Shown piece by piece: positions 1 through 16,257 of a stretch of DNA of 16,257 bases. The position numbers and the translations under genes were made by a program. The notes beneath the pieces were generated by a model. It saw nothing but the letters and a program-made list of their open reading frames with translations. It ran no database searches and had not been told where the DNA came from. The first letter of the stretch is position 1, and the number at the start of each line of letters is the position of its first letter. Source of the stretch: an uncultured Clostridia bacterium (GTDB lineage: Bacteria > Bacillota > Clostridia > Christensenellales > Aristaeellaceae); assembly GCA_946042585.1 (NCBI GenBank), contig CAMGDO010000002.1, positions 1-16,257 of the forward strand. Direction: 5' to 3'.

Positions 1-1
1 G

Positions 2-772
2 TATGATGATTATGATTGCGAAATACAAGATGAACCAAAATCGAAACGCGGTCAGATTTATCAACTCGGACGTCACAGGTTAATGTGTGGGGATTCAACA
101 GATAAAAATGATGTCGCATTACTTGTGGATGGTTGCCAAATTGATATGCTGCTTACTGATCCGCCTTATGGTGTCGATTACACAGGCAAGACAAAAGATA
201 ACATGAAAATTGCGAATGATGATCTCGATGATGGAGATCTGAGGTCATTTCTTTCGGACGCGTTTATTGCTGCTGATTCGGTTATGAAACCTGGCGCAGT
301 TTTTTATATTTGGCATGCGGATTCAAAATCTGGCATATTTAGAACCGCATGCCAAATGGCGAATTGGAAAGTGCGGCAAGTGCTCATATGGGTAAAAAAC
401 AGCATGGTTATGGGGAGACAGGATTACCAGTGGAAACACGAACCATGTTTATATGGGTGGAAAGATGGAGCTGCACATAAATGGGTAAGTGATCGGAAAC
501 AGACGACAGTTTTGGAGTTTGATCGACCAACAAAGAACAATCTTCACCCAACGATGAAACCTGTTGATCTGTTTGATTATCAAATAAAGAACAATACGGT
601 TCCAGGTGATGCTGTTCTTGATTTGTTTGGTGGAAGTGGAACGACTATCATTGCATGTGAGATAAATGGCAGACGAGGCTATGTTATGGAATACGATCCA
701 AAGTATGTGGACGTGATTATAAATCGTTGGGAACAAATCACTGGGCAAAAGGCGGTGATTATAAATGAATAG
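2..772 (+). CDS. DNA adenine methyltransferase, beta-class (5' truncated by the window)
   Basis: This is probably an N6-adenine DNA methyltransferase that protects or marks phage DNA. The reading frame is open from base 2, and the stretch before the first ATG (position 83) reads QIYQLGRHRLMCGDST, the usual join between an upstream ParB-like domain and the methylase. The true start therefore lies outside the window. Motif IV, TDPPYGVDY, is at about 155-181, and the AdoMet-binding motif I, VLDLFGGSGTT, is near 614-646. Motif IV before motif I is the beta-class order, and DPPY favours adenine as target. The target recognition region should lie between them. The frame ends in TAG at 770-772, overlapping the next start. 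Base composition is clearly AT-richer than the structural genes downstream. The presence of the ParB-like domain is inferred from this short stretch only; the recognition sequence cannot be read from the gene. Confidence 0.88.
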   Translation, partial: YDDYDCEIQDEPKSKRGQIYQLGRHRLMCGDSTDKNDVALLVDGCQIDMLLTDPPYGVDYTGKTKDNMKIANDDLDDGDLRSFLSDAFIAADSVMKPGAVFYIWHADSKSGIFRTACQMANWKVRQVLIWVKNSMVMGRQDYQWKHEPCLYGWKDGAAHKWVSDRKQTTVLEFDRPTKNNLHPTMKPVDLFDYQIKNNTVPGDAVLDLFGGSGTTIIACEINGRRGYVMEYDPKYVDVIINRWEQITGQKAVIINE

Positions 773-968
773 CCGCCAACAGTTTGTATATGAGATCGAA
801 GCTGCATGTGATGAGTTGAAACATGCTGGGATCCCACATGCGATCGATCTTGCAAAGCACATTGTGCGCATGAAGAGAGAACTCAATTTTTACGATAAAT
901 GCCATGCCATGAATAACGTGGCAAAATCAAGTGGTGGTGAGGTGAGTGCCGAGTGCAAAGAGCCTTGA
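765..968 (+). CDS. Small protein of unknown function
   Basis: This encodes a 67-residue protein of no family I recognise. The ATG at 765 lies inside the end of the methyltransferase gene (8-base overlap), with a moderate purine-rich stretch (GGCGGTG) about 8 bases upstream. The end overlaps the terminase small subunit start by 23 bases, so it is translationally embedded between two phage genes. The sequence is mostly charged and probably helical (EIEAACDELKHAG, then AKHIVRMKREL). It shows no signal peptide, membrane segment or Cys cluster. Small helical genes of this kind are common just before phage terminases. Its reality rests on the tight overlaps at both ends. Confidence 0.6.
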   Translation: MNSRQQFVYEIEAACDELKHAGIPHAIDLAKHIVRMKRELNFYDKCHAMNNVAKSSGGEVSAECKEP

Positions 969-1422
969 AAATCTGAAAAAAGGGCGAAGGTTTACGGCAG
1001 ATGCAGACGATCTGGTGACGAAAAATGCGCAGCGCAAGGGTGGGATCAATCACGCGCGCAAACTATCGATGCGCAAAGAATGCCAACGCATGCTTGGTAT
1101 GATGCCGGAAGTTACTGATGCTACAATCAAGCAGTTAAAACGTATGGGTATGGACGCTGAAGATCCAACGTTGCAAACGCTTATATTGGCACGCATAGGT
1201 GCGTTGGTGCTTGGCAAGAACGAGCGTGTTGCGCTCCAGGCTGCGCAGTTGCTTTTGGAGATTTCTGGCAACGATGCAAAGAGCATGATCGCATCTGAAG
1301 ATAGGAAGCTGCAGCGCGAAAAGCTCAAAATCGAGCGTGAGCGCTTGCAATTGGAAATGCAGAAAATAAACGGTGCAGAGGTTGCGGATGTGCCGCAGAT
1401 CATCGATCGGAGGCCCGAATGA
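946..1422 (+). CDS. terS: Probable terminase small subunit
   Basis: This is a likely DNA-recognition subunit of the packaging terminase, which would bind the packaging start site and load the large subunit. The 158-residue protein starts at a GTG (946) and ends in an ATGA overlap with the large subunit gene, the classic position. The N-terminus (SLENLKKGRRF, then AQRKGGINHARKLSMRK) resembles the basic segment seen in many Bacillota small subunits. The C-terminal half has a long charged helix (REKLKIERERLQLEMQKI) suited to oligomerisation. The start is not certain: GGTGAGGTG precedes the GTG closely, but the spacing is short. Composition is intermediate between the AT-richer genes to the left and the GC-rich genes to the right. 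The call rests on position and general character, not on a signature motif. Confidence 0.75.
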   Translation: MPSAKSLENLKKGRRFTADADDLVTKNAQRKGGINHARKLSMRKECQRMLGMMPEVTDATIKQLKRMGMDAEDPTLQTLILARIGALVLGKNERVALQAAQLLLEISGNDAKSMIASEDRKLQREKLKIERERLQLEMQKINGAEVADVPQIIDRRPE

Positions 1423-2888
1423 GCGAGATCAACATCTACGAGTCCATGTCGCCCGCATTCTGGGATCTCTACGACGACATCAAGGCAGAGCGCCACGCGG
1501 AATACTGGCTGGACGGCGGGCGCGGCTCGACGAAGTCCAGCTTCATTTCGCTGGTAATCGTGCGGGGGCTGCTGGCCGACCCGGACGCCAACGCGATCAT
1601 CTACCGCCGGGTGGGCAACACGATCAAGGACAGCGTATACAGCCAGATGCTGTGGGCCATCGACCGGCTGGAGCTCGCGCCTTGGTTCACGGCGAGGGTC
1701 TCCCCCTTCGAGCTGATCTACCGGCCCACGGGCCAGCGGGTGCTGTTCCGGGGCGCGGACGATCCCATGAAGTCGAAGTCCATCAAGCTCTCCCGCGGCT
1801 ATTTCAAGTATCTGTGGTACGAGGAGCTGGCGGAGTTCCGTGGCATGGAGGACGTGCGGTCGATCAAGCAGAGCGTGCTGCGCGGCGTGGATCGGGCGTG
1901 CACGCTCTACAGCTACAACCCGCCCCGCAGCGCCCAGAGCTGGGTGAACGTGGAGGCGCTGAACCCCGCGAAGCGCAGGCTGAAGCACCACAGCACCTAT
2001 CTGGACGTGCCTCCGGAATGGCTGGGCGATGAGTTCATCGCCGAGGCGGAGGCGCTGAGAACCGCCAATGAGCGGGCCTATCGCAACGAATACATGGGCG
2101 AGGTGACCGGCAGCGGCGGGCAGGTGTTCGACAATCTGGAGCTGCGGCCCATTGAACAGGCGGACGTGGACGGGCTGGAGCGCTTTTACAACGGTCTGGA
2201 CTTCGGCTTTGCGGTGGATCCGGACAGCTTCACCCGCTGGGGCTACAGCCGCAGGACGCGCATGCTGTACGCGCTGGGCGAATATTACGGCGCGCGCACG
2301 CCGCTGGACGTGCTGGCGGAGAAGGTGGGCGCGCAGGCCGGGCAGGAGCCGGTGCGGTGCGACAGCGCCGAGCCGCGCGCGATTGCGGAGCTGCGGGCGC
2401 GCGGGATCAACGCCATCGGCGTGAAGAAGGGGCCCGGAAGCGTGCACCACGGAATGCGCTGGCTGCAGGATCTGGGCGCGATCGTGATCGACCCGGAGCG
2501 CACGCCCAACATTGCCCGGGAGTTTTCCAAGTACGAATTCGACCGTGATCGGAGCGGGAATTTCCTGTGCGAGTACCCGGATCGGGACAACCATTGTCTG
2601 GCGGGAGATACCATTGTGCACACCTCGGAAGGCGATTTCAGGATTGATTCGCTGGTGGGAAAGACCGGGGTTGTGGTCTGCTATGACGAAGAGGCGAAGC
2701 GTGCCGCGAGGGCGCGCTTTTTTGATGTGCGCATGACGGGCGTTGAAGAGATTTTCGAGATTGAACTGGCGGACGGCAGATTGCTGCGCGCCAGCGCTGA
2801 GCACCCGGTACTGACGCGGCGCGGGTGGGTTCCCGCCGGTGCGCTGACAGCCGGGGATGATATCGTGGAGGCTGCAGATGGTTGTTGA
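1419..2888 (+). CDS. terL: Terminase large subunit, N-terminal part fused to N-terminal split intein half
   Basis: This encodes the motor ATPase and most of the nuclease that translocates and cuts phage DNA, followed by half an intein. Of 489 residues, 1-392 are terminase and 393-489 intein. The Walker A-like GGRGSTKSS is at 33-41 and the Walker B-like YLWYEE at 131-136. Nuclease acidic residues are likely Asp261 (GLDFGFAVDP) and Asp315 (CDSAEPR). The terminase part stops at DRDNH, in the middle of the conserved DNHxIDxxRYAL motif of PBSX-type terminases. The rest of that motif is encoded 0.7 kb downstream at 3605-3676. The start at 1419 overlaps the upstream stop and has GGAGG at 1409-1413. 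The 489-residue product alone lacks the third catalytic Asp and should need trans-splicing to become a nuclease. The predicted joined protein has 416 residues, normal for the family. Confidence 0.93.
   Translation: MSEINIYESMSPAFWDLYDDIKAERHAEYWLDGGRGSTKSSFISLVIVRGLLADPDANAIIYRRVGNTIKDSVYSQMLWAIDRLELAPWFTARVSPFELIYRPTGQRVLFRGADDPMKSKSIKLSRGYFKYLWYEELAEFRGMEDVRSIKQSVLRGVDRACTLYSYNPPRSAQSWVNVEALNPAKRRLKHHSTYLDVPPEWLGDEFIAEAEALRTANERAYRNEYMGEVTGSGGQVFDNLELRPIEQADVDGLERFYNGLDFGFAVDPDSFTRWGYSRRTRMLYALGEYYGARTPLDVLAEKVGAQAGQEPVRCDSAEPRAIAELRARGINAIGVKKGPGSVHHGMRWLQDLGAIVIDPERTPNIAREFSKYEFDRDRSGNFLCEYPDRDNHCLAGDTIVHTSEGDFRIDSLVGKTGVVVCYDEEAKRAARARFFDVRMTGVEEIFEIELADGRLLRASAEHPVLTRRGWVPAGALTAGDDIVEAADGC
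2595..2885 (+). other. N-terminal split intein half (IntN, 97 residues)
   Basis: The intein half begins at Cys (TGT, 2595-2597) with a canonical block A, CLAGDTIVHTSEGDF. It ends shortly after block B, GRLLRASAEHPVLTRRGW followed by AGALTAGDDI. The block B His is intein residue 70; the usual Thr three places earlier is Ser here. A 97-residue length with blocks A and B matches IntN halves split at the classical endonuclease insertion site. By hand count it is acidic (18 D/E against 11 K/R), while the IntC half is mildly basic. Such charge complementarity is common in natural split inteins. The stop codon directly follows DGC. Confidence 0.92.
2867..2880 (+). promoter_or_regulatory. Ribosome binding site and start of the HNH gene inside the intein frame
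   Basis: GGAGG at 2867-2871 is followed by a 6-base spacer and ATG at 2878. This is a near-ideal Shine-Dalgarno site and selects 2878 over the in-frame ATG at 2857. The start lies 11 bases before the end of the IntN stop codon, so translation of the endonuclease is probably coupled to that of the terminase-IntN gene. Confidence 0.8.
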
Positions 2889-3534
2889 ATATATCGAGGA
2901 TGGAAAGCGCGCCATTTATGGCGGGCTTGTTTTTGTGCGGGACGATACGACCGGGTATTATTTGAACTCGACCCTTTCGCTGAGACTGCACCGCGCGGTA
3001 TACGAGGGGGAAAACGGGCCGATTCCTGAGGGGTTCCATGTGCACCATGTGGATTTCGACAAATCGAACAACGAGCCTGAGAATCTTGTTGCGCTCTCTG
3101 CGGAGGATCATCTTCGGCTGCACGGACGCTGCATTACCGAAGAAGAGCGCGAAACCCGCAAGATGAACTTCATCAGCAATGTACAGGACAAGGCGCGCGA
3201 ATGGCATCACAGCGACGAGGGCCGCGAGTGGCACAGGGAGCACTACGAGCGCATGAAGAGCGCTATGCACAGAACCGGCACATTCGAATGCGCATATTGC
3301 GGGCGGACGTTTGAGGCGCAGGATAACGGCGCTGTGAAGTTCTGTTCGAACGCCTGCAAGAGCGCGTTTCGCCGGGCATCCGGGGTAGACGATGAGACGA
3401 GAATCTGCTTTGTTTGCGGAGGGAAATTCAATGTCAACAAGTACAGCGGCACAAGATGCTGTTCGCGCCGATGCGCCTCACTCATGCGCTGGGCGCTTCG
3501 CGCGGGTGAAGTCCGTTCGGCGGGCGGCGCCTGA
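2878..3534 (+). CDS. HNH homing endonuclease, free-standing, between split intein halves
   Basis: This probable site-specific DNA endonuclease of 218 residues is likely to spread the intein locus into intein-free terminase genes. The N-terminal half follows the phage HNH homing pattern: TTGYYLNSTLSLRLHRAVYE, then IPEGFHVHHVDFDKSNNEP and ENLVALSAEDHLRLHG. The HNH core is His56-His57, Asn65/Asn69 and His78/His82. Two zinc-finger-like units follow: C138-x2-C141-x14-C156-x3-C160 and C177-x2-C180-x14-C195-x3-C199. They probably aid DNA binding. Its frame differs from both intein halves. It overlaps the IntN gene by 11 bases, and its last 104 bases overlap the IntC gene. GC in two counted lines is about 50-57%, below the flanking terminase (about 70% in one line), consistent with a mobile gene. 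Activity and target are inferred. Confidence 0.9.
   Translation: MVVEYIEDGKRAIYGGLVFVRDDTTGYYLNSTLSLRLHRAVYEGENGPIPEGFHVHHVDFDKSNNEPENLVALSAEDHLRLHGRCITEEERETRKMNFISNVQDKAREWHHSDEGREWHREHYERMKSAMHRTGTFECAYCGRTFEAQDNGAVKFCSNACKSAFRRASGVDDETRICFVCGGKFNVNKYSGTRCCSRRCASLMRWALRAGEVRSAGGA
3418..3433 (+). promoter_or_regulatory. Ribosome binding site and start of the IntC-terminase gene
   Basis: GGAGGG at 3418-3423, a 7-base spacer and ATG at 3431 give an excellent translation start inside the HNH coding sequence. It decides the start of the C-terminal terminase gene against the in-frame ATG at 3392, which lacks such a site. The site also argues that the third reading frame is translated on its own and is not the debris of a broken gene. 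Confidence 0.8.
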
Positions 3535-3604
3535 GCCGGTCTACAACATGGAGGTTGAGCGGTACCACAATTTCGCGGTAAACGGCGGCCTGATTGTGCA
3601 TAAC
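3431..3604 (+). other. C-terminal split intein half (IntC, 58 residues)
   Basis: The half ends at the Asn codon 3602-3604, directly before the Cys codon 3605-3607 of the extein. It contains the block F His-Asn-Phe and the block G His-Asn needed for C-terminal cleavage and Asn cyclisation. With Cys1 in IntN, a block B His and a Cys +1 nucleophile, every main class 1 splicing residue is present across the two genes. The block B Thr is replaced by Ser. Confidence 0.92.
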
Positions 3605-3679
3605 TGCATCGACAGCGCGCGCTACGCACTGGAAGCGGAGATTTCGCGGCGCAGGGCGGAGACGCGCAGGGACTTTTAG
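3431..3679 (+). CDS. terL: C-terminal split intein half fused to terminase large subunit C-terminal part
   Basis: The 82-residue product supplies the second half of the intein (residues 1-58) and the last 24 residues of the terminase (59-82). The intein part has block F, EPVYNMEVERYHNFAVNGG, and block G, LIVHN, with penultimate His57 and terminal Asn58. Cys59 is the +1 nucleophile. The extein, CIDSARYALEAEISRR and onward, continues the motif left open upstream at DRDNH and brings the third nuclease Asp (residue 61 here, 395 after splicing). Residues 1-34 are encoded by bases that also encode the end of the HNH protein in another frame. The recognisable intein core starts near residue 22 (RFARVKSV), so the core's first dozen or so residues fall in the double-coding stretch. 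The function of the first 20 residues is unclear. The portal gene follows 17 bases later. Confidence 0.9.
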   Translation: MSTSTAAQDAVRADAPHSCAGRFARVKSVRRAAPEPVYNMEVERYHNFAVNGGLIVHNCIDSARYALEAEISRRRAETRRDF

Positions 3680-3696
3680 GAGGTTTACAGCAGAAC

Positions 3697-5118
3697 ATGA
3701 TTCAGAGATCGAGGGGCTATCTCGAGCCGGACGGCCTGCCATCGCAGAAGATGCTGCAGAGCGCGCTGAAGGAGCATCTGGGGCAGCTGCCCCGGCTGGA
3801 GAAACTGCGGAAATACTACGAGGGCGACAATGACATTCTGCAGCGCAGGCGCGCCAGCGGGCTGCCGAACAACCGCATCGCCCACCCCTTCGGGCGGTAC
3901 ATCGCTGCCGTGACGGCCGGTTACCTGATCGGCCAGCCTGCGGCCTACACGGTGGGCGACGGCGCGCCATCGGAGACGCTGGACGCGATTGTGGATCTGT
4001 ACGCCCGCAGCAGCATGGATTCGGTGGACATGGAGAACGCGCACAACGCGGCGGTCTACGGTCGGGGCATTGAGTACGTGCACGTGGACGCGGACGCATC
4101 GCCCCACGCGACGGCGCTCTCCCCTGCAGATGCGTTTGTGGTATATGAGGACACCTACGACATGTCGCCGCTGTTCGGCGTGTACATCGCACCGAAGCTG
4201 AAGGAGACCGGCGGCGCGGACGGGTTTCGGGTGTGGGTGATGACTGACCGGCTGATCGCCGAATACTACGCCAGGGATATGACGGTGGCGGAGTTTTCCG
4301 AGGTGAAGCGCGAGAGCCACTACTTCGGCGGCGTGCCGCTGGTGGAATACTGGAACGATGAGGATGAGCGCGGCGACTTCGAGTGGGTGATTCCGCTGAT
4401 CGACGCCTACGACAAACTGGAATCCGACCGCGTGAACGACAAGGAGCAATATGTGGACAAGCTGATCGTGATGACCGGATGCGTGCTGGAGAAGGACGAT
4501 CAGGGCCGCACCCCCGGGCAGCAGCTGCGCGAGGACAAGCTGCTGGCGCTGCCGGACAGCGACGCCAGCGTGGAATACCTTTCCTCCGCGCTGGACGAAG
4601 CCAACGTGGAGGTGCAGCGGCAGGCGCTGGAGGCGGACATCCACAAGCTGAGCATGGTGCCCGATCTGACGGACAGGGAGTTTGCGGCCAACGCCTCGGG
4701 CGTGGCGATGCGCTACAAGCTGTGGGGGCTGGATCAGCTGATCCGCATCAAGGAGCGCTGGTTCATCGAGGGTCTGCGCGGCCGCCTCAGGCTGTACGCC
4801 GGGTTTATGGCGGTGAAGGGATTCCCCGCGATGGACGTGTCGGGCGTGAACATCACCCTTTCCCGCTCCATGCCGGCCAACACGCTGGAGCAGGCGCAGA
4901 TTGCCCAGTACGCCAAGGCGGCGGACGCGGCCAGCGTGCGAGAGCGCGTGGCGATTCTGCACCGGGGCGAGGGCTGGACGGACGATCAGATCGACGCGGA
5001 CGCGGAGCGGATCCGGGTGGAGAGCGGCGATCCGCTGGGTCAGTTCGGGAACATCATTCCCGGCGACACGATGCCGCAGCTTGAACAGCAGGATCGGATG
5101 ATGGGCGATGGCGCGTAA
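3697..5118 (+). CDS. Portal protein, SPP1 gp6-like
   Basis: This forms the dodecameric portal ring at one capsid vertex through which DNA is packaged and released. At 473 residues it has the usual length for the SPP1-type family. The diagnostic N-terminal segment is at residues 58-77 (NNRIAHPFGRYIAAVTAGYL), followed by IGQPAAYTVGD. The middle part has the typical FGGVPLVEYWNDEDERGDFEW, and later come NASGVAMRYKLWGLDQL and IKERWFIEGLRGRLRL. The gene directly follows the split terminase, as expected. An AGGAGG at 3678-3683 overlaps the preceding stop, but the spacer to ATG 3697 is long (13 bases), so initiation may depend on coupling. The 3' end overlaps the minor head gene by 11 bases. Confidence 0.93.
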   Translation: MIQRSRGYLEPDGLPSQKMLQSALKEHLGQLPRLEKLRKYYEGDNDILQRRRASGLPNNRIAHPFGRYIAAVTAGYLIGQPAAYTVGDGAPSETLDAIVDLYARSSMDSVDMENAHNAAVYGRGIEYVHVDADASPHATALSPADAFVVYEDTYDMSPLFGVYIAPKLKETGGADGFRVWVMTDRLIAEYYARDMTVAEFSEVKRESHYFGGVPLVEYWNDEDERGDFEWVIPLIDAYDKLESDRVNDKEQYVDKLIVMTGCVLEKDDQGRTPGQQLREDKLLALPDSDASVEYLSSALDEANVEVQRQALEADIHKLSMVPDLTDREFAANASGVAMRYKLWGLDQLIRIKERWFIEGLRGRLRLYAGFMAVKGFPAMDVSGVNITLSRSMPANTLEQAQIAQYAKAADAASVRERVAILHRGEGWTDDQIDADAERIRVESGDPLGQFGNIIPGDTMPQLEQQDRMMGDGA

Positions 5119-6319
5119 GACGACGGCCCGGAGGGCCATTGACGGCGGCATGCGGATGCGGCTGGCCTTTGAGGACGGCGAGCTGAAGGTGATCAGCGTG
5201 CTGCGCGAAGAGGCCGCGCGCGTGATCGAGCTGCCCGGGCCGATGGCCGTTTACGATTCATCGAGCTTTGAGAAGAGGATTGACGCGCTGGCGCAGGAGA
5301 TCCGCGCCGAAGCGATGCGCATTGCGCAGGATGTTCTCGCGGACGCCTACGAATCCGTGGCGAATGAGATCGAAGCCTTTGCCGATGAGATGCAGCGGCT
5401 GGACGAAGAGGCATCTGCCGCGCTGGACATGGATCTGGCGGCGGCGGAGGATTGGGCGCGCGCTGAGGCAGAGGCCTACGCCGGGACCGATGCGGCTGCG
5501 GAGCAGGCGGAGGCGCGGGAGGCCATCGCAAAGGTGCAGTATGAGGTGGACGCATCGATTCAATCCGGAATCCGCCACATGCGCCGGGATGCGGACGACG
5601 TATACCAGCAGATCATTGATGCGGCCCGCGACACCCGCGAGGCGGAATGGGACACCCTGCGCAAGGCATCGAAGGACGCGCTGGACGCATTTGCGGATCG
5701 TGGCGTAACCGGGTTCACGGATCGCGCGGGGCGCAGGTGGGGACTTCCGGAATATGCGGACATGGCCATGCGCACGGGCATTCAGCGCGCGGCGCTGGCG
5801 GCGACCGTCAGCAGCATGCAGCGCTGGGGCATGGATCTGTGCTTTGTGAACAAGCACATGGGATGCTGCCCAAAGTGCGCGAAGTGGCAGGGCGTGATCC
5901 TTTCGCTGCGCGGCACGGGCGGGCATCCGAGCCTGGACGACGCGATGGCGGACGGGCTGTTCCACCCCAACTGCGGGCACGTGCTGCAGGTCTATCTCGA
6001 GGGATATTCGGAGCCGTGGCTGGGCGTGCCGGAGGGCTACGAAGAGGCGGACAATGCAGATCTCTACGCCCGCAGGCAGCGGCAGCGCATGATGGAGCGC
6101 GAGGTGCGGCGCTGGAAGCGGCGGCAGGCCGCAGCCGCTTCGCCACAGGATGAGCGCATCGCCCAGGCGCACGTGCAGCTGTGGCAGAAGCGCATTCGCG
6201 AGCACATCGGAGATGACGTGAATCTGCCGCGCCGCTACGATCGCGAGGGCGGGCGCGTTCTGCTGTCCGATGCGGCGAAGAAGCTTATGCCCGCGAAGCT
6301 GGGTTTCCAGCAAACTTGA
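5108..6319 (+). CDS. Minor head protein, phage minor capsid protein 2 family
   Basis: This is a head protein made next to the portal, probably present in few copies and linked to head assembly or DNA delivery. The 403-residue protein has a long charged, probably helical N-terminal half (EIRAEAMRIAQDVLADAYES and similar). A C-terminal half carries the Cys-rich signature of the family, CCPKCAKWQGVILSL with CPKC at 254-257, then GLFHPNCGHVLQVYLEG with HPNC at 286-289. These may bind zinc or form disulfides. It starts inside the portal gene at ATG 5108, with only a weak ribosome binding site, so translational coupling is likely. A strong hairpin with a T-run follows 15 bases after the stop. The family's precise role is poorly defined. 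Confidence 0.88.
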   Translation: MARKTTARRAIDGGMRMRLAFEDGELKVISVLREEAARVIELPGPMAVYDSSSFEKRIDALAQEIRAEAMRIAQDVLADAYESVANEIEAFADEMQRLDEEASAALDMDLAAAEDWARAEAEAYAGTDAAAEQAEAREAIAKVQYEVDASIQSGIRHMRRDADDVYQQIIDAARDTREAEWDTLRKASKDALDAFADRGVTGFTDRAGRRWGLPEYADMAMRTGIQRAALAATVSSMQRWGMDLCFVNKHMGCCPKCAKWQGVILSLRGTGGHPSLDDAMADGLFHPNCGHVLQVYLEGYSEPWLGVPEGYEEADNADLYARRQRQRMMEREVRRWKRRQAAAASPQDERIAQAHVQLWQKRIREHIGDDVNLPRRYDREGGRVLLSDAAKKLMPAKLGFQQT

Positions 6320-6333
6320 AATACCGGCAATCC

Positions 6334-6360
6334 GCCGCGCTCGGTTCGGGCGCGGCTTTT
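6334..6360 (+). terminator. Intrinsic terminator-like hairpin between minor head and scaffold genes
   Basis: A 10-base-pair GC-rich stem, GCCGCGCTCG with CGGGCGCGGC (one G-T pair) and a GTT loop, is followed by TTTT at 6357-6360. It lies in the 115-base gap between the minor head and scaffold genes. In an otherwise continuous operon it may partly terminate transcription or protect a processed RNA end. The T-run is short, so efficiency is uncertain. Confidence 0.7.
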
Positions 6361-6434
6361 GCATGCCCGGACGTCTGGGGGCTGATCCAGGCGGAGTATG
6401 CCGACGGGCGTTAAACGGATGAGGAGAGACCAAC

Positions 6435-7091
6435 ATGAGCAGATACAAGCACAGGGAACCCATCTTTGACCTCCAGCTTTTCGCGGAGGGCGAGGCGCAG
6501 CAGGCGGCCGGAGGCGAACCCTCGAACAGCGGCGATACGGGCGCACAGGCCGCGCAGGAGGCGCAGCCCGCCCAGCAGGAGGTGGCGCGCGAGAGCGAGC
6601 ACACCTACACGCAGGCGGATGTGGACAGGATCATCAACCAGCGCTTTGCGCGCTTTCAGCGCGAGGCGGACCGGCGCGTGGAACAGGCCCGGGAAGAGGC
6701 CCGCACGGAGGCCGAGCGGCTGGCCCAGATGACGGAGCAGCAGCGCGCGGAGCACGAGCGGCAGCGCGCAGAGCAGGCTGCGCAGCAGCGCGAGAGCGAT
6801 CTGGCGCGCCGGGAGGCGGAGATCACCCGCCGCGAGCTGCGGGCAGAGGCCATCGACACGCTGGCGCAGCGGGGCCTGCCCCGGGCGCTGGAGCAGATGC
6901 TGGACTATTCCGGCGCGGACGCCTGCAGCGCGAGCATTGACGCCGTGGAGCGCGTGTTCCGCGACGCGGTGCAGCAGGGCGTGGAGGAGCGGCTGAAGCA
7001 GAGCGGCGTGCAGCTGCAGGCCGCCGGCAAAGCGCCCGACTATGACTCCATGAGCGACGCGGACTACTACGCCGCTCGATACAAAAAATAA
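6435..7091 (+). CDS. Capsid scaffold protein
   Basis: This is a probable internal scaffold guiding coat protein assembly, then removed from the procapsid. The 218 residues begin with KHREPIFDLQLFAEGE, an N-terminus often seen in phage scaffold genes. An Ala/Gln/Glu-rich disordered stretch follows (to about residue 50), then a long charged coiled coil from about 60 to 140 with regular Arg, Glu and Gln (for example AERLAQMTEQQRAEHERQRA). The C-terminus MSDADYYAARYKK is typical of the helical segment that contacts coat protein. It sits directly before the major capsid gene. ATG 6435 has GAGGAGAG 6-7 bases upstream. No serine protease motif is seen, so maturation by an in-frame protease is not supported. 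Confidence 0.88.
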   Translation: MSRYKHREPIFDLQLFAEGEAQQAAGGEPSNSGDTGAQAAQEAQPAQQEVARESEHTYTQADVDRIINQRFARFQREADRRVEQAREEARTEAERLAQMTEQQRAEHERQRAEQAAQQRESDLARREAEITRRELRAEAIDTLAQRGLPRALEQMLDYSGADACSASIDAVERVFRDAVQQGVEERLKQSGVQLQAAGKAPDYDSMSDADYYAARYKK

Positions 7092-7113
7092 AACCCAAGG
7101 AGGCTGAAAAACC

Positions 7114-8229
7114 ATGGCAAACACTTTCATTACTCTGAAGCTGATCGCACGCGAGGCGCTGCCCCGGCTGATCGAGAATCTGGTCTTCCCCAACCTGGTC
7201 TACCGCAACTTCAGCGCGGACTTCAAGAACCTGGGCGACACCATTCAGGTGCGCAAGCCCACGATTCTGACCGCGGAGGAGTTCAACCAGGATACGGGCG
7301 TGAACTACCAGGACATGACCGAGGACAGCGTGGACGTGAAGCTGGACAAACTGGCCACCGTTGACGCGAAGGCCAGCGCGATCGAGACGGCTGTGAACAT
7401 CGACGATCTGAACCGCGTGTTCATCGAGCCCGCCGCCGTGGCGCTGGCGGAGAAGATCAACGCCGACGGTCTGGCGCTCTACAAGGACGTGCCCTACGCC
7501 GTGGGCACTGCGGGCACCACGCCCACCGATCTGAGCATTCTGGCCAACGCGCGCAAGCAGCTGAATATCAACAAGGCCCCCGTTTCCGGGCGCGTCGCCG
7601 TGTGGGATCCTGAGGCGGACGCGGCGTTTACCCAGATTCCCGCCGTGGTGAACGCGGAGAAGTCCGGCAGCACTCAGGCGCTGCGCGAGGGCAGCATTGG
7701 CCGGCTGATGGGCTTTGAGAACTACATGGCCCAGGGCGTGGCGCACCACGAATCCGGAATTACCGGCTCCAGCGCCGTGAAGGTAAGCGGCAGCGTTTCC
7801 GAGGGCGATACCTCGCTGAACCTGACCGCCACCACGCTGACCGGCAAGCTGCTGAAGGGCGACATTCTGACCATCAAGGGCAAGACCTACGTGGTGACCG
7901 AGGATTCCGCCGAGGCGAGCGCGAACGCCATTTCCGGCGTGAAGGTCTATCCCGCCCTGCCCGCGCTGACCTCCAGCACCACTGTGACCATCGCGGCCAG
8001 CCACACGGCGAATCTGGCCTTCCTGCCCATGGCCTTCGCCTACGTGACCCGCCCGCTGATGAACCCGGACGGCCAGGGCGTGATGAGCTATGTGACCAGC
8101 TACAACGGCATTTCCCTGCGCGTGACCAAGGGCTACGATCAGAAGTACAAGCGCAGCACCTACTCTATGGACGTGCTGTACGGCTACAAGACGATCTATC
8201 CCGAGCTGGCGGTTCGCGCGATGGGCTGA
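7114..8229 (+). CDS. Major capsid protein, P22 coat-like
   Basis: This is the main shell protein of the capsid. The 371 residues start MANTFITLKLIAREALPRLI, then ENLVFPNLVYRNFSADF and GDTIQVRKPTILTAEEF, the pattern of P22 gp5-like coat proteins with the HK97 fold. A beta-rich, Thr/Ser-rich segment at about residues 222-297 (GSVSEGDTSLNLT to TVTIAASH) interrupts the shell domain. It contains GDILTIKGKTYVVTED, similar in place and style to the insertion domain of P22-like coats. The C-terminus returns to the fold with KYKRSTYSMDVLYGYKTI. AAGGAGG at about 7097-7103 gives a strong ribosome binding site, fitting high expression. Codon use is strongly GC-biased. Confidence 0.93.
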   Translation: MANTFITLKLIAREALPRLIENLVFPNLVYRNFSADFKNLGDTIQVRKPTILTAEEFNQDTGVNYQDMTEDSVDVKLDKLATVDAKASAIETAVNIDDLNRVFIEPAAVALAEKINADGLALYKDVPYAVGTAGTTPTDLSILANARKQLNINKAPVSGRVAVWDPEADAAFTQIPAVVNAEKSGSTQALREGSIGRLMGFENYMAQGVAHHESGITGSSAVKVSGSVSEGDTSLNLTATTLTGKLLKGDILTIKGKTYVVTEDSAEASANAISGVKVYPALPALTSSTTVTIAASHTANLAFLPMAFAYVTRPLMNPDGQGVMSYVTSYNGISLRVTKGYDQKYKRSTYSMDVLYGYKTIYPELAVRAMG

Positions 8230-8233
8230 TACC

Positions 8234-8545
8234 ATGGCTGCGGACTATGAAAGCGTTGAGGCGCGGCTGAGAGCGTACATCGCGCCCAACGCGCCGCAGA
8301 CCGCTGCGGAGAACGACGCGTTTGAGCAGGCTGTGGAGGCGCAGGCGGAATATGAGAGCGCCGCAGAAAGCGACGCTCAGGTTCCGATGGGCGTTTCGGG
8401 ATACAGCGCCGGAAACTTTTCGGTGAACTATGTGCACGCGCAATCCGGAGAATTCGATCAGTTTTCGATTTCGCCCTATGCGCGCGCCATTCTTCAGAAC
8501 GCCGGACTACTGCGCCATGCGATGCCCGTGGCGAGGAGGCTCTGA
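8234..8545 (+). CDS. Head-tail connector protein (adaptor position)
   Basis: This is a probable adaptor that attaches below the portal after packaging. The 103-residue product follows the coat gene by 4 bases, the standard place for the first neck gene. The N-terminal half is helical and acidic (AADYESVEARLRAYI, then FEQAVEAQAEYESAA). The second half has GYSAGNFSVNY and SISPYARAILQNAGLLRHAM, a pattern I associate with small connector proteins of Bacillota siphophages. No strong ribosome binding site is visible before ATG 8234, so it is probably translated by re-initiation. Assignment is by position and general resemblance. Confidence 0.68.
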   Translation: MAADYESVEARLRAYIAPNAPQTAAENDAFEQAVEAQAEYESAAESDAQVPMGVSGYSAGNFSVNYVHAQSGEFDQFSISPYARAILQNAGLLRHAMPVARRL

Positions 8546-8546
8546 C

Positions 8547-8855
8547 ATGCTTGGATTGACGGATTCCGCCATGATCTTCAAACAGTCGGGCAGACAGAAC
8601 GGCGCGCCGCAGTGGGAAGCCGTTGGCGCGCCGTGCGTCTGCCGCGTGGAGCCCGCCCGTGCGTATCGGTTCAGCGGGAATTCCGTCGAGCAGATCGCGG
8701 ACACGCGCATTTTTATCTCCGGTGCGGCCTGCGCGCCCGGGGATCGGATTCGGGTGAACGCGCGGACGTACATCGCCGTGCAGGTGAATGAGATGCGCGC
8801 CTTCGGGCGCACGCACCACCTTGAGATCTTTTGCAAGGCGGTGGATGACGCGTGA
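8547..8855 (+). CDS. Head closure / minor capsid neck protein
   Basis: This is a small neck protein likely to close the portal-adaptor channel. I choose ATG 8547, with GAGGAGG at 8533-8539 and a 7-base spacer, over an upstream in-frame ATG at 8430 that would lie deep in the preceding gene. The 102 residues are beta-rich (CVCRVEPARAYRFSGN, ARTYIAVQVNEMRAFG, HHLEIFCKAVDDA), as in the stopper proteins of SPP1-like phages and the minor capsid families of A118-like phages. It ends in a GTGA overlap with the next gene. Confidence 0.7.
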   Translation: MLGLTDSAMIFKQSGRQNGAPQWEAVGAPCVCRVEPARAYRFSGNSVEQIADTRIFISGAACAPGDRIRVNARTYIAVQVNEMRAFGRTHHLEIFCKAVDDA

Positions 8856-9226
8856 AGAACTATACGAAGAATCTGGGCGCATTTACCTACAGCATCGATT
8901 TTGATGTGGAAGGTTTGGGCGGCCGTGCGCAGCGCGCTGCAGAGCATGCCGTGATGGAATGCGGCGAATACATCCGACAGCGGTCTACGGCCATCGCGCC
9001 CTATCGGGAAGGGCCGCTGACCGAGTCCGCACGGGTTCGTTCGTCCGGCCCTGTCAGCGCGACGATTGAATATGCGATTGTGTACGCCAGATATCAGCAT
9101 GAGAACACCGGCCTCAGGCATCCGAACGGCAGGCAGGCGAAATACCTTCAGTCCGTGATGGAAAGCCCCGCCACACAGCAGGCGATGCAATCCATCTTTC
9201 AGAAGCACCTTGGAAAGGAGCTGTGA
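8852..9226 (+). CDS. Neck / tail completion protein, minor capsid family
   Basis: This 124-residue protein lies in the third neck position. The start is GTG 8852, overlapping the preceding stop, with AAGGCGGTGG about 7 bases upstream. The middle holds AEHAVMECGEYIRQRSTAIA and TIEYAIVYARYQHENTG, followed by HPNGRQAKYLQSVM. This 'YA..QH...' segment before a conserved C-terminal helix is typical of the small minor capsid and HK97 gp10-like proteins that complete the head-tail joint. The exact family cannot be fixed by eye. Confidence 0.72.
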   Translation: MKNYTKNLGAFTYSIDFDVEGLGGRAQRAAEHAVMECGEYIRQRSTAIAPYREGPLTESARVRSSGPVSATIEYAIVYARYQHENTGLRHPNGRQAKYLQSVMESPATQQAMQSIFQKHLGKEL

Positions 9227-9229
9227 GGA

Positions 9230-9412
9230 ATGACGCAGCAGGACAGGCTTGAGCTTGCCTCCGCGCTGGAATCGATCGGGGAGCTTGAGCGCTATGCCGG
9301 TTGCTCGGATCTGTTCTTCCGGCAGGTGCTCACCCAGAAGATCCGCGCGATTCTCGCGGGCGGATACATCGAGAAACTGAGAAGCGATGGCGCGCAGGAG
9401 CGCGCCGATTAA
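9230..9412 (+). CDS. Small helical protein of unknown function
   Basis: This encodes a 60-residue protein that I do not recognise. It starts 3 bases after the preceding stop, with GGAG and TGAGGA in the 20 bases before ATG 9230, and ends 12 bases before the major tail gene. It is predicted mostly helical (QQDRLELASALESIGELERY, then FRQVLTQKIRAILAGGYIEKL). Its position between the neck and major tail genes suggests a role in tail joining or a regulatory accessory role, but the sequence shows none directly. Confidence 0.6.
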   Translation: MTQQDRLELASALESIGELERYAGCSDLFFRQVLTQKIRAILAGGYIEKLRSDGAQERAD

Positions 9413-9424
9413 GGAGGGAATTTT

Positions 9425-10162
9425 ATGGCGAGAAAATCCGGATGCCCGTTCAATATTCGGGACTATTCTGTGAAGATCGAAAACAAGGTGACCGACGACG
9501 AGGTTCAGGTGAAGGGTCTGAACACCATGAGCGTGGACGTGGACGCGGACACCGACGACGGCAAGACCGGCGAAGCGGTTTGGGCGGAGATGTTCATCAA
9601 GGGCCGCAGCGTGTCCGGTTCGCTGGGCGGCCGACCGATCGTGGATCGCGCCACCGGAACCCGCGACCCCGGCCAGGCGCTGATGCACAAGGCCGCCTAC
9701 AATTCCGGCGGCTGCGACAACGATCAGACGCTGATCGTTGCGGACGCCATCGGCCGCGCGGTGAAGTACGACTGCGTGATCACCAAGGAATCCATTTCTG
9801 CCGACGAGGACGGCGAGGAGATCAGCTGGGACTGGGAGGGCGTCGGCCAGCCCGAGGAGATGCCCTATGTGCAGCTTACGGCCGTCGCATTCAAGGAGAG
9901 CAGCGGCAGCTCGACGACCACGTCTGTGGCCGTGAATGTGGGCGCTACGAAGGAGGTCACTGTGGCGTTTACGCCGGAGAACGCCTCCAACCAGCGCTAC
10001 AGCTATTCCATCGGCGATGAATCCATCGCGGCGCTGAACGCCATCGACGGTGCGAACATCTCCATCCGCGGCGTGAGCGCCGGCAGCACGAAGCTGACCG
10101 TGAAGACCATGAATAATAGCAAGACTGCGGAGCTGACCATCACGGTATCCTCGGCCAGCTGA
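9425..10162 (+). CDS. Major tail protein with C-terminal Ig-like domain
   Basis: This is the probable tail tube subunit. The 245 residues divide into a tube domain (about 1-158) and a C-terminal bacterial Ig-like (Big_2 type) domain (about 165-243). The tube domain has KIENKVTDDEVQVKGLNTMS and AEMFIKGRSVSGSLGGRP. The Ig-like domain has VAVNVGATKEVTVAFTPENA, SYSIGDESIAALNAIDG and GVSAGSTKLTVKTMN. Such domains decorate the outside of many siphophage tails and may help weak binding to host surfaces. AAGGAGGGA just before ATG 9425 is a very strong ribosome binding site, as expected for an abundant structural protein. A strong hairpin follows the stop. Confidence 0.87.
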   Translation: MARKSGCPFNIRDYSVKIENKVTDDEVQVKGLNTMSVDVDADTDDGKTGEAVWAEMFIKGRSVSGSLGGRPIVDRATGTRDPGQALMHKAAYNSGGCDNDQTLIVADAIGRAVKYDCVITKESISADEDGEEISWDWEGVGQPEEMPYVQLTAVAFKESSGSSTTTSVAVNVGATKEVTVAFTPENASNQRYSYSIGDESIAALNAIDGANISIRGVSAGSTKLTVKTMNNSKTAELTITVSSAS

Positions 10163-10170
10163 ATTTCTCA

Positions 10171-10195
10171 GGGCGCGGGGGATTCCCCTGCGCCC
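10171..10195 (+). other. Strong hairpin after the major tail gene
   Basis: An 11-base-pair stem with an ATT loop, GGGCGCGGGGG with CCCCTGCGCCC (one G-T pair), lies 8 bases after the tail gene stop. No T-run follows, so it is not a classical intrinsic terminator. It may stabilise the 3' end of the major tail mRNA against exonucleases or cause weak termination. Confidence 0.6.
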
Positions 10196-10220
10196 AATGA
10201 CTTGATCGCGGAGGAAAATT

Positions 10221-10610
10221 ATGACGATCATTGAACAGATGGCGCGGTATCTGGCCGCAAAGCTGGCGCTCCCGTTTGAGGGAGCGGCATCCGGCGCGGT
10301 GTTCTTCGGTTACCTGCCCGCGGCTCCGGTGAAGGCCATCTGCGTGTATGCCAGAGATCTGCGCGCGCCGGGAGATCAGGACGGCGCGCGGGTGCAGATC
10401 GTGATCCGGTCGGACGCGGACGGCGCATGGCCGCTGGAAAAGGCCGTGGAGATCATGCGGCTGCTGGATGAGCGGCGGGATCTGCTGTTTACTGCGGACG
10501 GGGACTACATCAGCCGCGTTGAAACGGAGTCAGGATTTGAATTTGCCGGGCTGGAAAACAACGCGACCCAGATGTATGCGGCAAACTTCCGCGTGTACTA
10601 TTGCGGTTGA
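10221..10610 (+). CDS. Probable tail terminator / minor capsid protein 3-like
   Basis: This probably caps the tail tube and joins it to the head. The 129 residues follow the pattern of the family: an N-terminal helix (IIEQMARYLAAKLALPF), GAVFFGYLPAAPVKAICVYA, then GARVQIVIRSDADG, a helix with EKAVEIMRLLDERRDLLF, and a final strand AANFRVYYCG. GGAGG lies about 8 bases before ATG 10221. In related phages this gene usually precedes the major tail gene; here it follows. The stop codon overlaps the -35 element of the next promoter. Confidence 0.75.
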   Translation: MTIIEQMARYLAAKLALPFEGAASGAVFFGYLPAAPVKAICVYARDLRAPGDQDGARVQIVIRSDADGAWPLEKAVEIMRLLDERRDLLFTADGDYISRVETESGFEFAGLENNATQMYAANFRVYYCG

Positions 10611-10635
10611 CAGGCCACCTTATGCGTGATATGAT
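10607..10635 (+). promoter_or_regulatory. Near-consensus sigma-70 (SigA) promoter with extended -10
   Basis: TTGACA at 10607-10612 is a perfect -35 box. Exactly 17 bases later comes TATGAT at 10630-10635, one mismatch from the consensus -10, preceded by TG at 10627-10628 with one base between (extended -10). Transcription should begin near 10642, about 23 bases before the start of the next gene. The match is far better than chance in GC-rich sequence, and it sits just before a gene with its own terminator. Confidence 0.88.
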
Positions 10636-10664
10636 AAATCCATCACACAGATGGAGGGTTCGCA

Positions 10665-11138
10665 ATGTACGTTTGGTTGGTTGTGATCGCATATGTTGTG
10701 TCCGTGATTGCGTGCGGCTGCATGTGCAGCGATCTTGCGAATGAGAAGGGGCATTCTTCCACACCGGCTTTCTGGTGCGGATTGGTCTTTGGGGTGATGG
10801 CGCTCATCTATTACGCCGGTCGGCCCGTATCGGAGGAAATGCGCGCAAAGGCCGACCGCGCGCGCGCTGAAGCGCTTGCCTCCGCGCTGGAGATGCGTGG
10901 GCAGAACCAGAGCGGCGTGAATGGTGCAGACATGCCCGCGCCAGATGCGAAGCCGCTGAAGAACAAGGCGCTGGCGGCGATGGATGCGCTTGAACGTGAA
11001 TCCAAGAGCGCTGCGCACAGGATTCCCATTGAGGGAACTGTTCGCGGAAAGGCGCAGTGCACATGCTCGGAATGCAAAACGCAGCAGGACGCCGGCAGAA
11101 CGAAATGCTGGCACTGCGGAAGAATCTTTGAGGATTGA
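10665..11138 (+). CDS. Small membrane protein with C-terminal zinc ribbon, probable moron
   Basis: The 157-residue protein has two predicted membrane helices: YVWLVVIAYVVSVIACGCMC at the N-terminus, and FWCGLVFGVMALIYYAG around residues 36-52. A charged region (RAKADRARAEALASALEM) follows, then a C-terminal zinc ribbon, C134-x2-C137 and C148-x2-C151. It does not resemble a tail structural protein. It interrupts the tail module between the tail terminator and the chaperones, with its own promoter (10607-10635), a strong ribosome binding site (GGAGGG at 10653-10658, 6-base spacer) and its own terminator (11183-11213). These are the marks of a phage moron, which may be expressed independently of lytic genes, for example from a prophage. 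Possible roles include superinfection exclusion or altering the host envelope, but the sequence shows no specific function. Confidence 0.8.
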   Translation: MYVWLVVIAYVVSVIACGCMCSDLANEKGHSSTPAFWCGLVFGVMALIYYAGRPVSEEMRAKADRARAEALASALEMRGQNQSGVNGADMPAPDAKPLKNKALAAMDALERESKSAAHRIPIEGTVRGKAQCTCSECKTQQDAGRTKCWHCGRIFED

Positions 11139-11182
11139 CGATCCGGCGCACCTCGGGCGCGCTTTGACTGAGGAATGAAAAG

Positions 11183-11213
11183 AACCGCTTCACAGCCGTG
11201 AGGTGGTTTTTTT
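11183..11213 (+). terminator. Intrinsic terminator of the moron unit
   Basis: An 11-base-pair stem, AACCGCTTCAC with GTGAGGTGGTT (two G-T pairs) and an AGCC loop, is followed by a seven-T run at 11207-11213. AAAAG just before the stem could let it act weakly in the other direction. It ends the transcript started at 10642. Read-through or antitermination would be needed for upstream structural transcripts to reach the tail genes beyond it. Confidence 0.9.
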
Positions 11214-11240
11214 GTATAGATTTGAGGAGGAGCAATCAAT

Positions 11241-11624
11241 ATGGCAAAGCGGCATGTGGATTTTGACAGGTTTCTCGCAGAGCGCGAGGACAGGACGATG
11301 ACGGTTCGCGTTTTCGGGCGCGACTGCGAAGTGCCCGTAGAGCTTCCGTGGGTCTATGTATTGAAAATTCAGGAGATGCTCAGCGGAAAGATTCAGATCA
11401 GCGGCGAGGAAAACATGAAGTTGCTTCAGCAGATGTTCAGCCGCGATGATTTTGAATTCATCGTGAGCCATCCTGAATTCCGGTATTCCTATGTATGGGA
11501 GCTGATCGCCTATACGTGGCTGCGCGCGGATGCGCCCGAAAAGCCTTCCGAGCCTGTTTTCAGGACGGAGGACGATATCAAGGTGGAACAGACGCAGGCG
11601 GGCGCTAAAAAAAAATCACCGTAA
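11241..11624 (+). CDS. Tail assembly chaperone, short form (gpG-like)
   Basis: The 127-residue zero-frame product should bind the tape measure protein during tail assembly. It contains FGRDCEVPVELPWVYVLKIQ and QQMFSRDDFEFIV, then a mainly charged tail ending GAKKKSP. ATG 11241 is preceded by GAGGAGGAG with a 7- to 10-base spacer. Its place directly before the tape measure gene, its size and the slippery run at its end identify it as the first chaperone of a lambda G/GT-type pair. The stop is TAA at 11622-11624, nine bases beyond the slip point. Confidence 0.85.
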   Translation: MAKRHVDFDRFLAEREDRTMTVRVFGRDCEVPVELPWVYVLKIQEMLSGKIQISGEENMKLLQQMFSRDDFEFIVSHPEFRYSYVWELIAYTWLRADAPEKPSEPVFRTEDDIKVEQTQAGAKKKSP

Positions 11625-11863
11625 GCCCGATCAGCCTGTGGCGATATATTGAGGCTGATTTTCAGCGCGAATACGGGATTGATCTGATCCATTCGGATAT
11701 GTCATGGCGGAAGTTCTGCGTGCTTTATTCGGGGCTGTCCCCAAGAAGCCTGTGCTATCTGAACTACGACCGAATCGCCCAAAGGGAAGGAATCAACAAC
11801 GCGGCGGCGGAGGCGAGCGCATGGGATGCGCTGACCGGCCTGAGCAAGCCGCGCGGACAGTGA
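11241..11863 (+). CDS. Tail assembly chaperone, frameshifted long form (gpGT-like, Gp15-like C-terminus)
   Basis: A -1 shift at 11609-11615 would join the first 125 codons to the overlapping frame 11615-11860, giving about 207 residues. The added part reads ITVSPISLWRYIEADFQREYG, then IDLIHSDMSWRKFCVLYSGL and SYLNY-like sequence (actual SLCYLNYDRIAQREGI). This resembles phage Gp15 proteins, with their YGI(x) and MxWxxF...L(x)GL pattern. In this frame a TAA at 11606-11608 lies just before the slip site, and the first ATG (11699) has no ribosome binding site and would lose a third of the domain. Translation by frameshift is therefore the simplest explanation. The stop is TGA 11861-11863, close to the tape measure start. 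Confidence 0.85.
11607..11615 (+). promoter_or_regulatory. Slippery A-run for -1 ribosomal frameshift
   Basis: Nine consecutive A follow GCT. The heptamer A-AAA-AAA at 11609-11615 is in the right phase (zero-frame codons AAA 11610 and AAA 11613), and the next -1 codon is ATC at 11615. I did not find a convincing downstream pseudoknot by eye; many A-run shifts work without one. Confidence 0.82.
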
Positions 11864-11873
11864 GGTGAAACAT

Positions 11874-15476: not shown

Positions 15477-15482
15477 TGGACA

Positions 15483-16211: not shown

Positions 16212-16257
16212 ATGATAGCGATTCCGGTATATGCCCCGGACGCGGAGGATTTTTCCA
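16212..16257 (+). CDS. Start of tail-associated protein / tail endopeptidase gene (cut by window end)
   Basis: ATG 16212 opens directly after the Dit stop and reads MIAIPVYAPDAEDFS to the window end. In Bacillota siphophages, genes after Dit often begin with 'IPVYxPDAxDFSxNG' and encode the tail-associated (Tal-like) structural protein, sometimes with a peptidase. The identity is inferred from 15 residues and position only. Confidence 0.6.
   Translation, partial: MIAIPVYAPDAEDFS

Follow-up and report, generated by a model that had tools for sequence, protein, structure and literature searches.

The window analyzed here, a 16,257-nucleotide stretch of DNA from an uncultured Clostridia bacterium (contig CAMGDO010000002.1, positions 1 to 16,257), carries a gene for the terminase large subunit (TerL) that a split intein divides into two parts, with an HNH endonuclease gene between the halves. 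We consider it very likely that this is a class 1 intein, split where inteins usually carry their endonuclease and, by comparison with relatives, derived from a nested state with the HNH gene out of frame. With less confidence, we also consider it reasonably probable that such phage TerL inteins belong to a two-frame type of element, with the splicing domain and the homing endonuclease in different frames of shared DNA and the splicing frame held open by selection against stops over the HNH gene, and that they are a common, standing source of several split inteins, the window being one product.

The interrupted terL locus

All features of the locus lie on the plus strand, in three open reading frames (ORFs) that each occupy a separate frame: TerL with the N-terminal intein half (IntN) at 1419-2888, HNH at 2878-3534, and the C-terminal intein half (IntC) with the TerL tail at 3431-3679. 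The initial annotation, made from the sequence alone, had placed three overlapping genes here; coordinates and translations matched, and the overlaps (11 bases between IntN and HNH, 104 bases between HNH and IntC) are real. The 392-residue TerL N-extein (1419..2594) contains the ATPase and most of the nuclease domain. Its identity as a terminase large subunit was established by matches to both the ATPase and the RNase H-like nuclease domain (Terminase_3, E=5e-32; Terminase_3C, E=1e-11; both over cut-off), and a TIGR01547 match fell below its cut-off. IntN comprises 97 residues (2595..2885, stop codon 2886-2888) and gave a profile match as well as a TIGR01445 match at the cut-off (24.5 bits). 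The 36-residue IntC core (3497..3604), which ends in His-Asn, also gave a profile match and scored 30.9 bits with TIGR01443 against a cut-off of 15.6. It follows a 22-residue N-terminal extension encoded on HNH DNA (3431..3496), with phrog_28563 spanning residues 4-78 of the IntC protein, and precedes a 24-residue TerL C-extein (CIDSARY...; 3605..3676, stop codon 3677-3679). Pfam Intein_splicing matched both halves below its cut-off, which is that of a whole intein.

The HNH gene (2878..3534) encodes 218 residues in its own frame and matches HNH_3 (E=8e-15) and phrog_15471 (E=1e-44). The HNH domain with its conserved His and Asn residues is present: the core spans residues 56-82 (3043..3123), and H56, H57, N65, N69, H78, and H82 are invariant in alignments A1 and A4. 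The protein also has two zinc-finger-like CxxC...C...C motifs, the first formed by C138, C141, C156, and C160 (3289..3357) and the second, overlapped by the IntC gene, by C177, C180, C195, and C199 (3406..3474); both were recognized from invariant columns and lack a curated domain match. The structure model is confident (mean pLDDT 94.5), and the best solved match, a weak one (profile E=0.01; fold E=0.03, prob 0.87), was I-HmuI (PDB 1u3e), a group I intron endonuclease. A PF01844 search of the own genome gave nothing, HNH_3 being the right family for this protein. Both downstream genes possess the good ribosome sites first noted for them: a start-site scan located GGAGG at 2867..2871, 6 bases 5' of the HNH ATG, and GGAGG also occurs at 3418..3422, 8 bases 5' of the IntC ATG.

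The main class 1 splicing residues had all been listed as present. This stands for Cys1, the block B His, the C-terminal Asn after His (the intein ends IVHN), and the Cys at +1; block B reads SAEH, however, and the Thr of TxxH is Ser. That Thr is a consensus residue, not an absolute requirement, and was not treated as defining. The insertion site is the C-terminal nuclease motif of TerL (DNH / CIDSARY). Intein-free TerLs, the closest of them 66% identical, continue directly past the same site, with D[ASG]xRY in 21/21 of those listed, and their tails measure 18-35 residues in 20/21 and 48 residues in one. Because these tails match at the same site, we conclude that the 24-residue C-extein is the missing end of TerL. 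Judged by its sequence, the window has the makeup of a fractured gene, in which the gene of an enzyme is cut into two parts that are each joined to one half of an intein and enclose an endonuclease gene on the same strand, and the locus is probably functional. The first description of the locus, as a TerL split intein whose halves enclose an HNH gene, is borne out by the domains, the splicing residues, the ribosome sites, and recurrence in 26 other loci.

Nested, split, and free forms among relatives

HNH relatives were gathered by protein patterns from viral contigs, genome contigs, and phage records, and TerL and IntC relatives were added; for one set of relatives, from viral contigs, the best 80 of 236 were kept. 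The HNH profile matched 170/195 sources at E<1e-8. These comprised 105 nested loci, in which IntN and IntC lie in one open ORF with HNH in another frame; 37 split loci (window included), in which the halves occupy separate ORFs; 24 with HNH and no intein found; 2 with an open IntN and no IntC match (IntN-open); and 2 that lie at a contig edge and show IntC alone (IntC-only). HNH was fused within the intein ORF in 0/144 loci with IntN, and in ten split loci IntN and HNH share a frame with a stop codon between them. Representatives at 85% HNH identity numbered 147 (95 nested, 27 split, 21 without intein, 2 IntN-open, and 2 IntC-only). Fetching by HNH only yielded 152 loci: 103 nested, 25 split, 20 without intein, 2 IntN-open, 1 IntC-only, and 1 (L095) without an HNH profile match. 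Loci L052-L061 were fetched by IntC and hence lean to split; L197-L203 were profiled after the counts and lie outside them.

The split layout was found in 26 other non-redundant loci, one with an HNH remnant only, and is therefore neither an artefact nor unique. The three-gene order that the initial annotation proposed to seek in phage sequences was thus located, and the suggestion that the combination is distinct has to be modified, since the same order is present in known phages, annotated there as separate genes or, for IntC in one case, not annotated. That case is Lactobacillus phage CL2 (KR905067), which has the order TerL-IntN, HNH, IntC-TerL tail with IntC unannotated. Brochothrix phage BL3 (HM144386; L063) resembles the window in gene order as CL2 does, but its split intein has lost the HNH core and retains only the zinc-finger part, at 2196-2417. 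Vibrio phage 1.238.B, which was profiled apart from these loci, also looks split, although its IntC match is weak (E=0.005). Nested inteins occur in Tetrasphaera phage TJE1, Acinetobacter phage Highwayman, and Rhodobacteraceae phage LS06; the annotation of TJE1 and Highwayman at the nested locus gives terL only and misses the nested nuclease. Their hosts belong to more than one terminase family: in a Pfam run on ten N-exteins, chosen from the set that had no TerL profile match next to the intein, four had terminase matches, at least one over cut-off (Terminase_3, 6N/6C), one had a T7-like match below cut-off, and five had no match.

Several individual loci deserve mention. Among genome-contig loci L074-L092, with phyla presumed from the record titles, seven are split (6 Bacillota, 1 Patescibacteria) and nine are nested, in Bacteroidota, Pseudomonadota, Actinomycetota, Omnitrophota, and Nitrospirota. 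A second, upstream IntN match in one TerL ORF (L009, 1266-1454; L047, 1734-1958; L198, 12-224) may mean that these genes hold two inteins. In L016 (700-1581 / 1400-2959), the N-terminal part of TerL shifts frame upstream of the nested intein, through either a sequencing error or a real break.

Conservation of the splicing residues was scored in 93 nested and 26 split representatives; alignment A3 holds 71/88 listed nested inteins. With IntN read from profile position 1, every representative scored has the class 1 nucleophile Cys1 (26/26 split, 93/93 nested), the window among them. TxxH occurs in 93/93 nested and 25/26 split inteins, the window with SxxH being the sole split exception. A last Asn is found in 93/93 nested and 25/26 split inteins, Cys, Ser, or Thr at +1 in the same proportions (93/93 and 25/26), and His before the last Asn in 70/93 and 23/26. 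Part of this agreement arises by construction, because the intein halves were found by profile. In one split intein (L013, near 4249), the final residue reads Gln instead of Asn. An AlphaFold2 model of the nested intein L012 (mean pLDDT 70.6, pTM 0.50) is confident in both halves, with ten-residue means of 90-98 up to residue 90 and 95-98 from residue 311, and poor in the middle (45-77 at residues 111-300), where the DNA also encodes HNH. The model matches the Npu DnaE intein (4kl5_A; E=2e-7, TMt 0.87, rmsd 1.8), and the nested intein is accordingly predicted to fold as a HINT domain with a low-confidence middle.

We compared the stop codons across the HNH core with those expected from synonymous shuffles, run on sequences of at least 360 bases and free of N (94/97 nested or IntN-open, 26/27 split, and 19/21 intein-free representatives). 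The nested intein frame has 0 stops versus 197.7 expected (94 loci). Since the nested class is defined by being open, the fairer figure includes all 114 loci with IntN and HNH in different frames, of which 94 are stop-free versus 19.4 (sd 3.1) expected. The third frame of nested loci contains 1385 stops versus 1435.5 expected. For the IntC frame of split loci, the count is 188 stops versus 185.9 expected; the corresponding figures are 6 versus 5.5 in the window and 116 versus 110.4 in the equivalent (+1) frame of free HNH genes, where 2/19 lack any stop. An HNH gene hidden beneath an open host frame, as in 105 relatives, is not what the window has: over its HNH core, the two frames not used by HNH contain 6 and 5 stops. 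IntC lies in the +1 frame of HNH in 23/26 split loci, and the intein does likewise in 88/94 nested loci; IntN of split loci lies in frames 2, 1, and 0 relative to HNH in 12, 8, and 6 cases. This distribution fits a putative history in which HNH and IntC were locked by their overlap and IntN drifted once free of the frame that it shared with IntC. For constraint on amino acids in the overlap beyond stop avoidance, no sign was seen, the third-position excess being alike in nested (2.12), split (2.28), and free (2.18) forms (27, 40, and 3 pairs, respectively).

The ribosome sites also separate the two layouts. An IntC-frame start with a ribosome site of at least 5 bases, within 120 bases, was found in 17/27 split versus 10/95 nested representatives (codon-shuffle controls, 0.21 and 0.14; Fisher p=1e-7). 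HNH starts with such a site number 20/27 in split, 34/95 in nested, and 11/21 in free forms, against controls of 0.135, 0.107, and 0.110. In addition, CL2 and BL3 each have one Terminase_3 match, the interrupted one; the same search of TJE1 and Vibrio phage 1.238.B gave no match. A working TerL in CL2 and BL3 would therefore need the halves to be joined, provided that no TerL of another family, which this search would miss, is present. The impression that the arrangement is built to work and not decayed fits both the ribosome-site contrast and these single matches.

Direction of change and competing explanations

We propose that the three genes would be translated from one operon, as TerL-IntN, a free HNH endonuclease, and IntC-TerL tail, and that the intein halves would associate and trans-splice to yield a 416-residue TerL. 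The HNH enzyme would cut intein-free terL near the same site, and repair would copy the element in. Ancestrally, the HNH gene would have lain out of frame inside an unbroken intein gene; in-frame stops would have arisen and IntC would have gained its own start and ribosome site, after which the intein frame across HNH would be free to close. The outcome would be a split intein, with the window as the derived state. Parsimony of stops favors the nested-to-split direction, because the reverse would need the loss of 188 IntC-frame stops in 25 split loci. On a quick tree of HNH proteins (141/147 representatives), the nested/split label needs 6 changes, and for the split label a minimum of 3 changes is unavoidable given the starred branches. 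Irreversible change from a nested ancestor gives 9 split groups, an unsupported count on which the support filter had no effect (9 at every threshold).

A number of observations weigh against this account. Its direction rests on parsimony, and expression and splicing are predicted from sequence; the HNH tree is quick, with weak deep support and a root that was not inferred. Kinship weakens the ribosome-site p-value, independent pairs amounting to 2 (starred branches) or 5 (all), which is not significant, and 10/27 split loci have no 5-base IntC ribosome site. IntN and IntC share a frame in 11/27 split representatives, which is not above chance. Regarding the splicing residues, the window has Ser for the block B Thr, and 23/93 nested inteins lack His before the last Asn. 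Lastly, stops are fewer than expected in frames of split loci that are already closed: 485 versus 539.6 in the +2 frame of HNH (below all 1000 simulated totals), 272 versus 299.1 in the IntN frame (a count that 6 split loci do not enter, their IntN being in the frame of HNH), and 5 versus 11.3 in the IntN frame of the window, which is the +2 frame (P=0.004). Part of this deficit may stem from codon context lost in the shuffles, because the split frames are closed anyway and the same frame has smaller deficits in nested loci, as the third frame, and in free HNH genes (391 versus 406.9 expected, P=0.08).

If the split state were instead ancestral, nested forms would have arisen by the fixing of frames and the removal of stops. 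The tree leaves room for this, having no inferred root and 6 nested/split changes that carry no direction, and the slight shortage of stops in one frame of split loci could be either left over from an open frame or a step towards one. We nevertheless regard this order of events as improbable: about 7.5 IntC-frame stops would have to be lost at each of 25 loci (188 in all), with a shared frame each time, and nested forms are more numerous and spread across more phyla in the genome collection.

It is similarly unlikely that the HNH protein serves DNA packaging together with TerL and is kept for that instead of homing. There is precedent in the HNH nuclease of HK97, which, according to excerpts of PMC10448857, is encoded upstream of the terminase and cooperates with it to cleave cos. 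HNH genes of the present family often adjoin terL, and 10/21 free ones lie directly 3' of an uninterrupted terL. However, the HNH gene is sporadic and sits inside inteins, and BL3 has lost the HNH core yet keeps its split intein. Among 150 genomes (own included), TerL matches at E<=1e-30 occurred in 30, and a full-length HNH match was found in the own genome only, with weak partial matches in 4. The sporadic HNH gene, the element-free terL genes, and the free HNH genes directly behind terL fit a candidate mobile gene aimed at this spot.

Three loci with HNH display other irregularities at or near the insertion site. In Exiguobacterium phage vB_EauM-23 (L064, 2246-3160), TerL stops 4 codons past the insertion site and a TerL-like tail (CDATRYAME...) resumes 3' of HNH; no intein halves and no Rfam intron were found, and terL may here be interrupted at this spot by an element of a different kind. 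TerL of Limosilactobacillus coleohominis (L079) likewise ends at the insertion site. In a Spirosoma metagenome-assembled genome (L094), a TerL-tail-like stretch (LGDCFRY...NFEY..YKQI) flanks the HNH gene on both sides, near 2732 and 3575, like a target duplication. A known intron was sought with Rfam in the window and in 19 no-intein loci (20 sources in all), with no match; at E<=1, neither L064 nor the window had an intron match, and one sub-threshold snoRNA match in L079 was judged to be chance.

Decay offers a further explanation of the window, as a nested element that lost its frame and leaves no working TerL. The closed frames, the Ser in block B, and the loss of HNH in BL3 could all be taken this way. 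Against it stand GGAGG at both downstream starts, the higher frequency of IntC ribosome sites in split than in nested loci, splicing residues that nearly all of the 26 scored split representatives retain, a complete C-extein, and the lack of a second Terminase_3 match in CL2 and BL3. We therefore hold decay to be a poor explanation, with little probability. For the nested loci, it is very improbable that HNH is made by −1 ribosomal frameshifting from IntN and not from its own start. HNH does lie in the −1 frame of the intein in 88/94 nested loci, but the +1 frame of HNH is simply poor in stops, also in free HNH genes (116 versus 391 in the +2 frame); slippery heptamers are not enriched (15 versus 18.9 expected, 90 loci), the ATG is the first start of the HNH frame in 73/95, and ribosome sites exceed the control. 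Sequencing or assembly errors that broke one continuous intein-HNH frame, conceivable in a fragmented, 59% complete genome bin, were rejected as an explanation and have hardly any probability left, given that the layout recurs in 26 other non-redundant loci, isolate genomes included, that in-frame HNH fusion occurs in 0/144 loci with IntN, and that HNH is in a different frame in nested loci too.

Relation to known systems and neighboring genes

Dassa et al. reportedly described in 2009 fractured genes with split inteins and a free endonuclease gene between the halves, a definition that we take from citing papers. The window is alike in that a split intein interrupts a conserved phage enzyme and its halves enclose a gene for a free endonuclease. 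It is unlike them in its extein (TerL), in its HNH_3 nuclease with zinc-finger-like motifs (phrog_15471), in its overlapping genes, and in its nested out-of-frame relatives. The nearest biochemically tested case in the literature compared, going by the excerpted text of PMC7891396, is AceL NrdHF, in which an IntN of 98 and an IntC of 48 residues enclose a GIY-YIG gene and trans-splicing was shown in vitro. It shares the fractured gene, the canonical split, and the endonuclease between the halves, and differs in being a class 3 intein, with a GIY-YIG nuclease and a ribonucleotide reductase extein. AceL-TerL and GOS-TerL, as presented in portions of PMC11766414, resemble the window in being split inteins in TerL, but are atypical, with IntNs of 25 and 37 residues. 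Because of these very short IntNs, the window, whose IntN has 97, is not of the AceL-TerL type, in agreement with the classical split site by which it had been set apart from that type at the outset.

Hidden nucleases are known from the ShiLan methylase insertion, where, in the excerpts of PMC11855218, an HNH gene with zinc fingers lies out of frame and the host ORF stays open. It differs in that those excerpts give no intein splicing domains and no ribosome site was found, whereas in the present terL genes the hidden gene is enclosed by the ends of an intein. Phage MIJ3 PolB differs in its DNA polymerase extein, and a nested state does not appear in the passages of PMC6892783 considered. In the literature searched, mostly titles and abstracts, with subscription papers and most preprints outside it, we found neither an out-of-frame HNH gene inside a genuine intein nor a TerL split intein with an endonuclease. 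The two-frame intein-endonuclease arrangement, common in phage TerL genes, is apparently undescribed.

In the papers compared, the entry of endonucleases into inteins and the origin of split inteins have so far been inferred and not followed stepwise. Here a single nuclease family is represented at essentially one TerL motif by forms that are free, nested, split, or reduced to a remnant, and each step is therefore testable with natural pairs; the two-frame family thereby makes the origin of split inteins testable. Nested inteins also provide natural overlapping genes that are long and under selection that can be measured, and the split forms add canonical-split inteins that are candidate protein-joining tools.

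Downstream (3') of the locus lie an SPP1-type portal gene and a P22-like coat gene, and the gene order of the window resembles an ordinary packaging and head operon, with small-terminase and tape-measure genes named by position and size only. A scan for promoters and terminators gave results near the shuffle level. Upstream of the packaging operon, an N6_N4 DNA methylase gene enters from the window edge (2-772). The same genome bin also contains a second, distant TerL (G000:C36:5179-6267), 34% identical over residues 31-394, in a 435-residue open frame.

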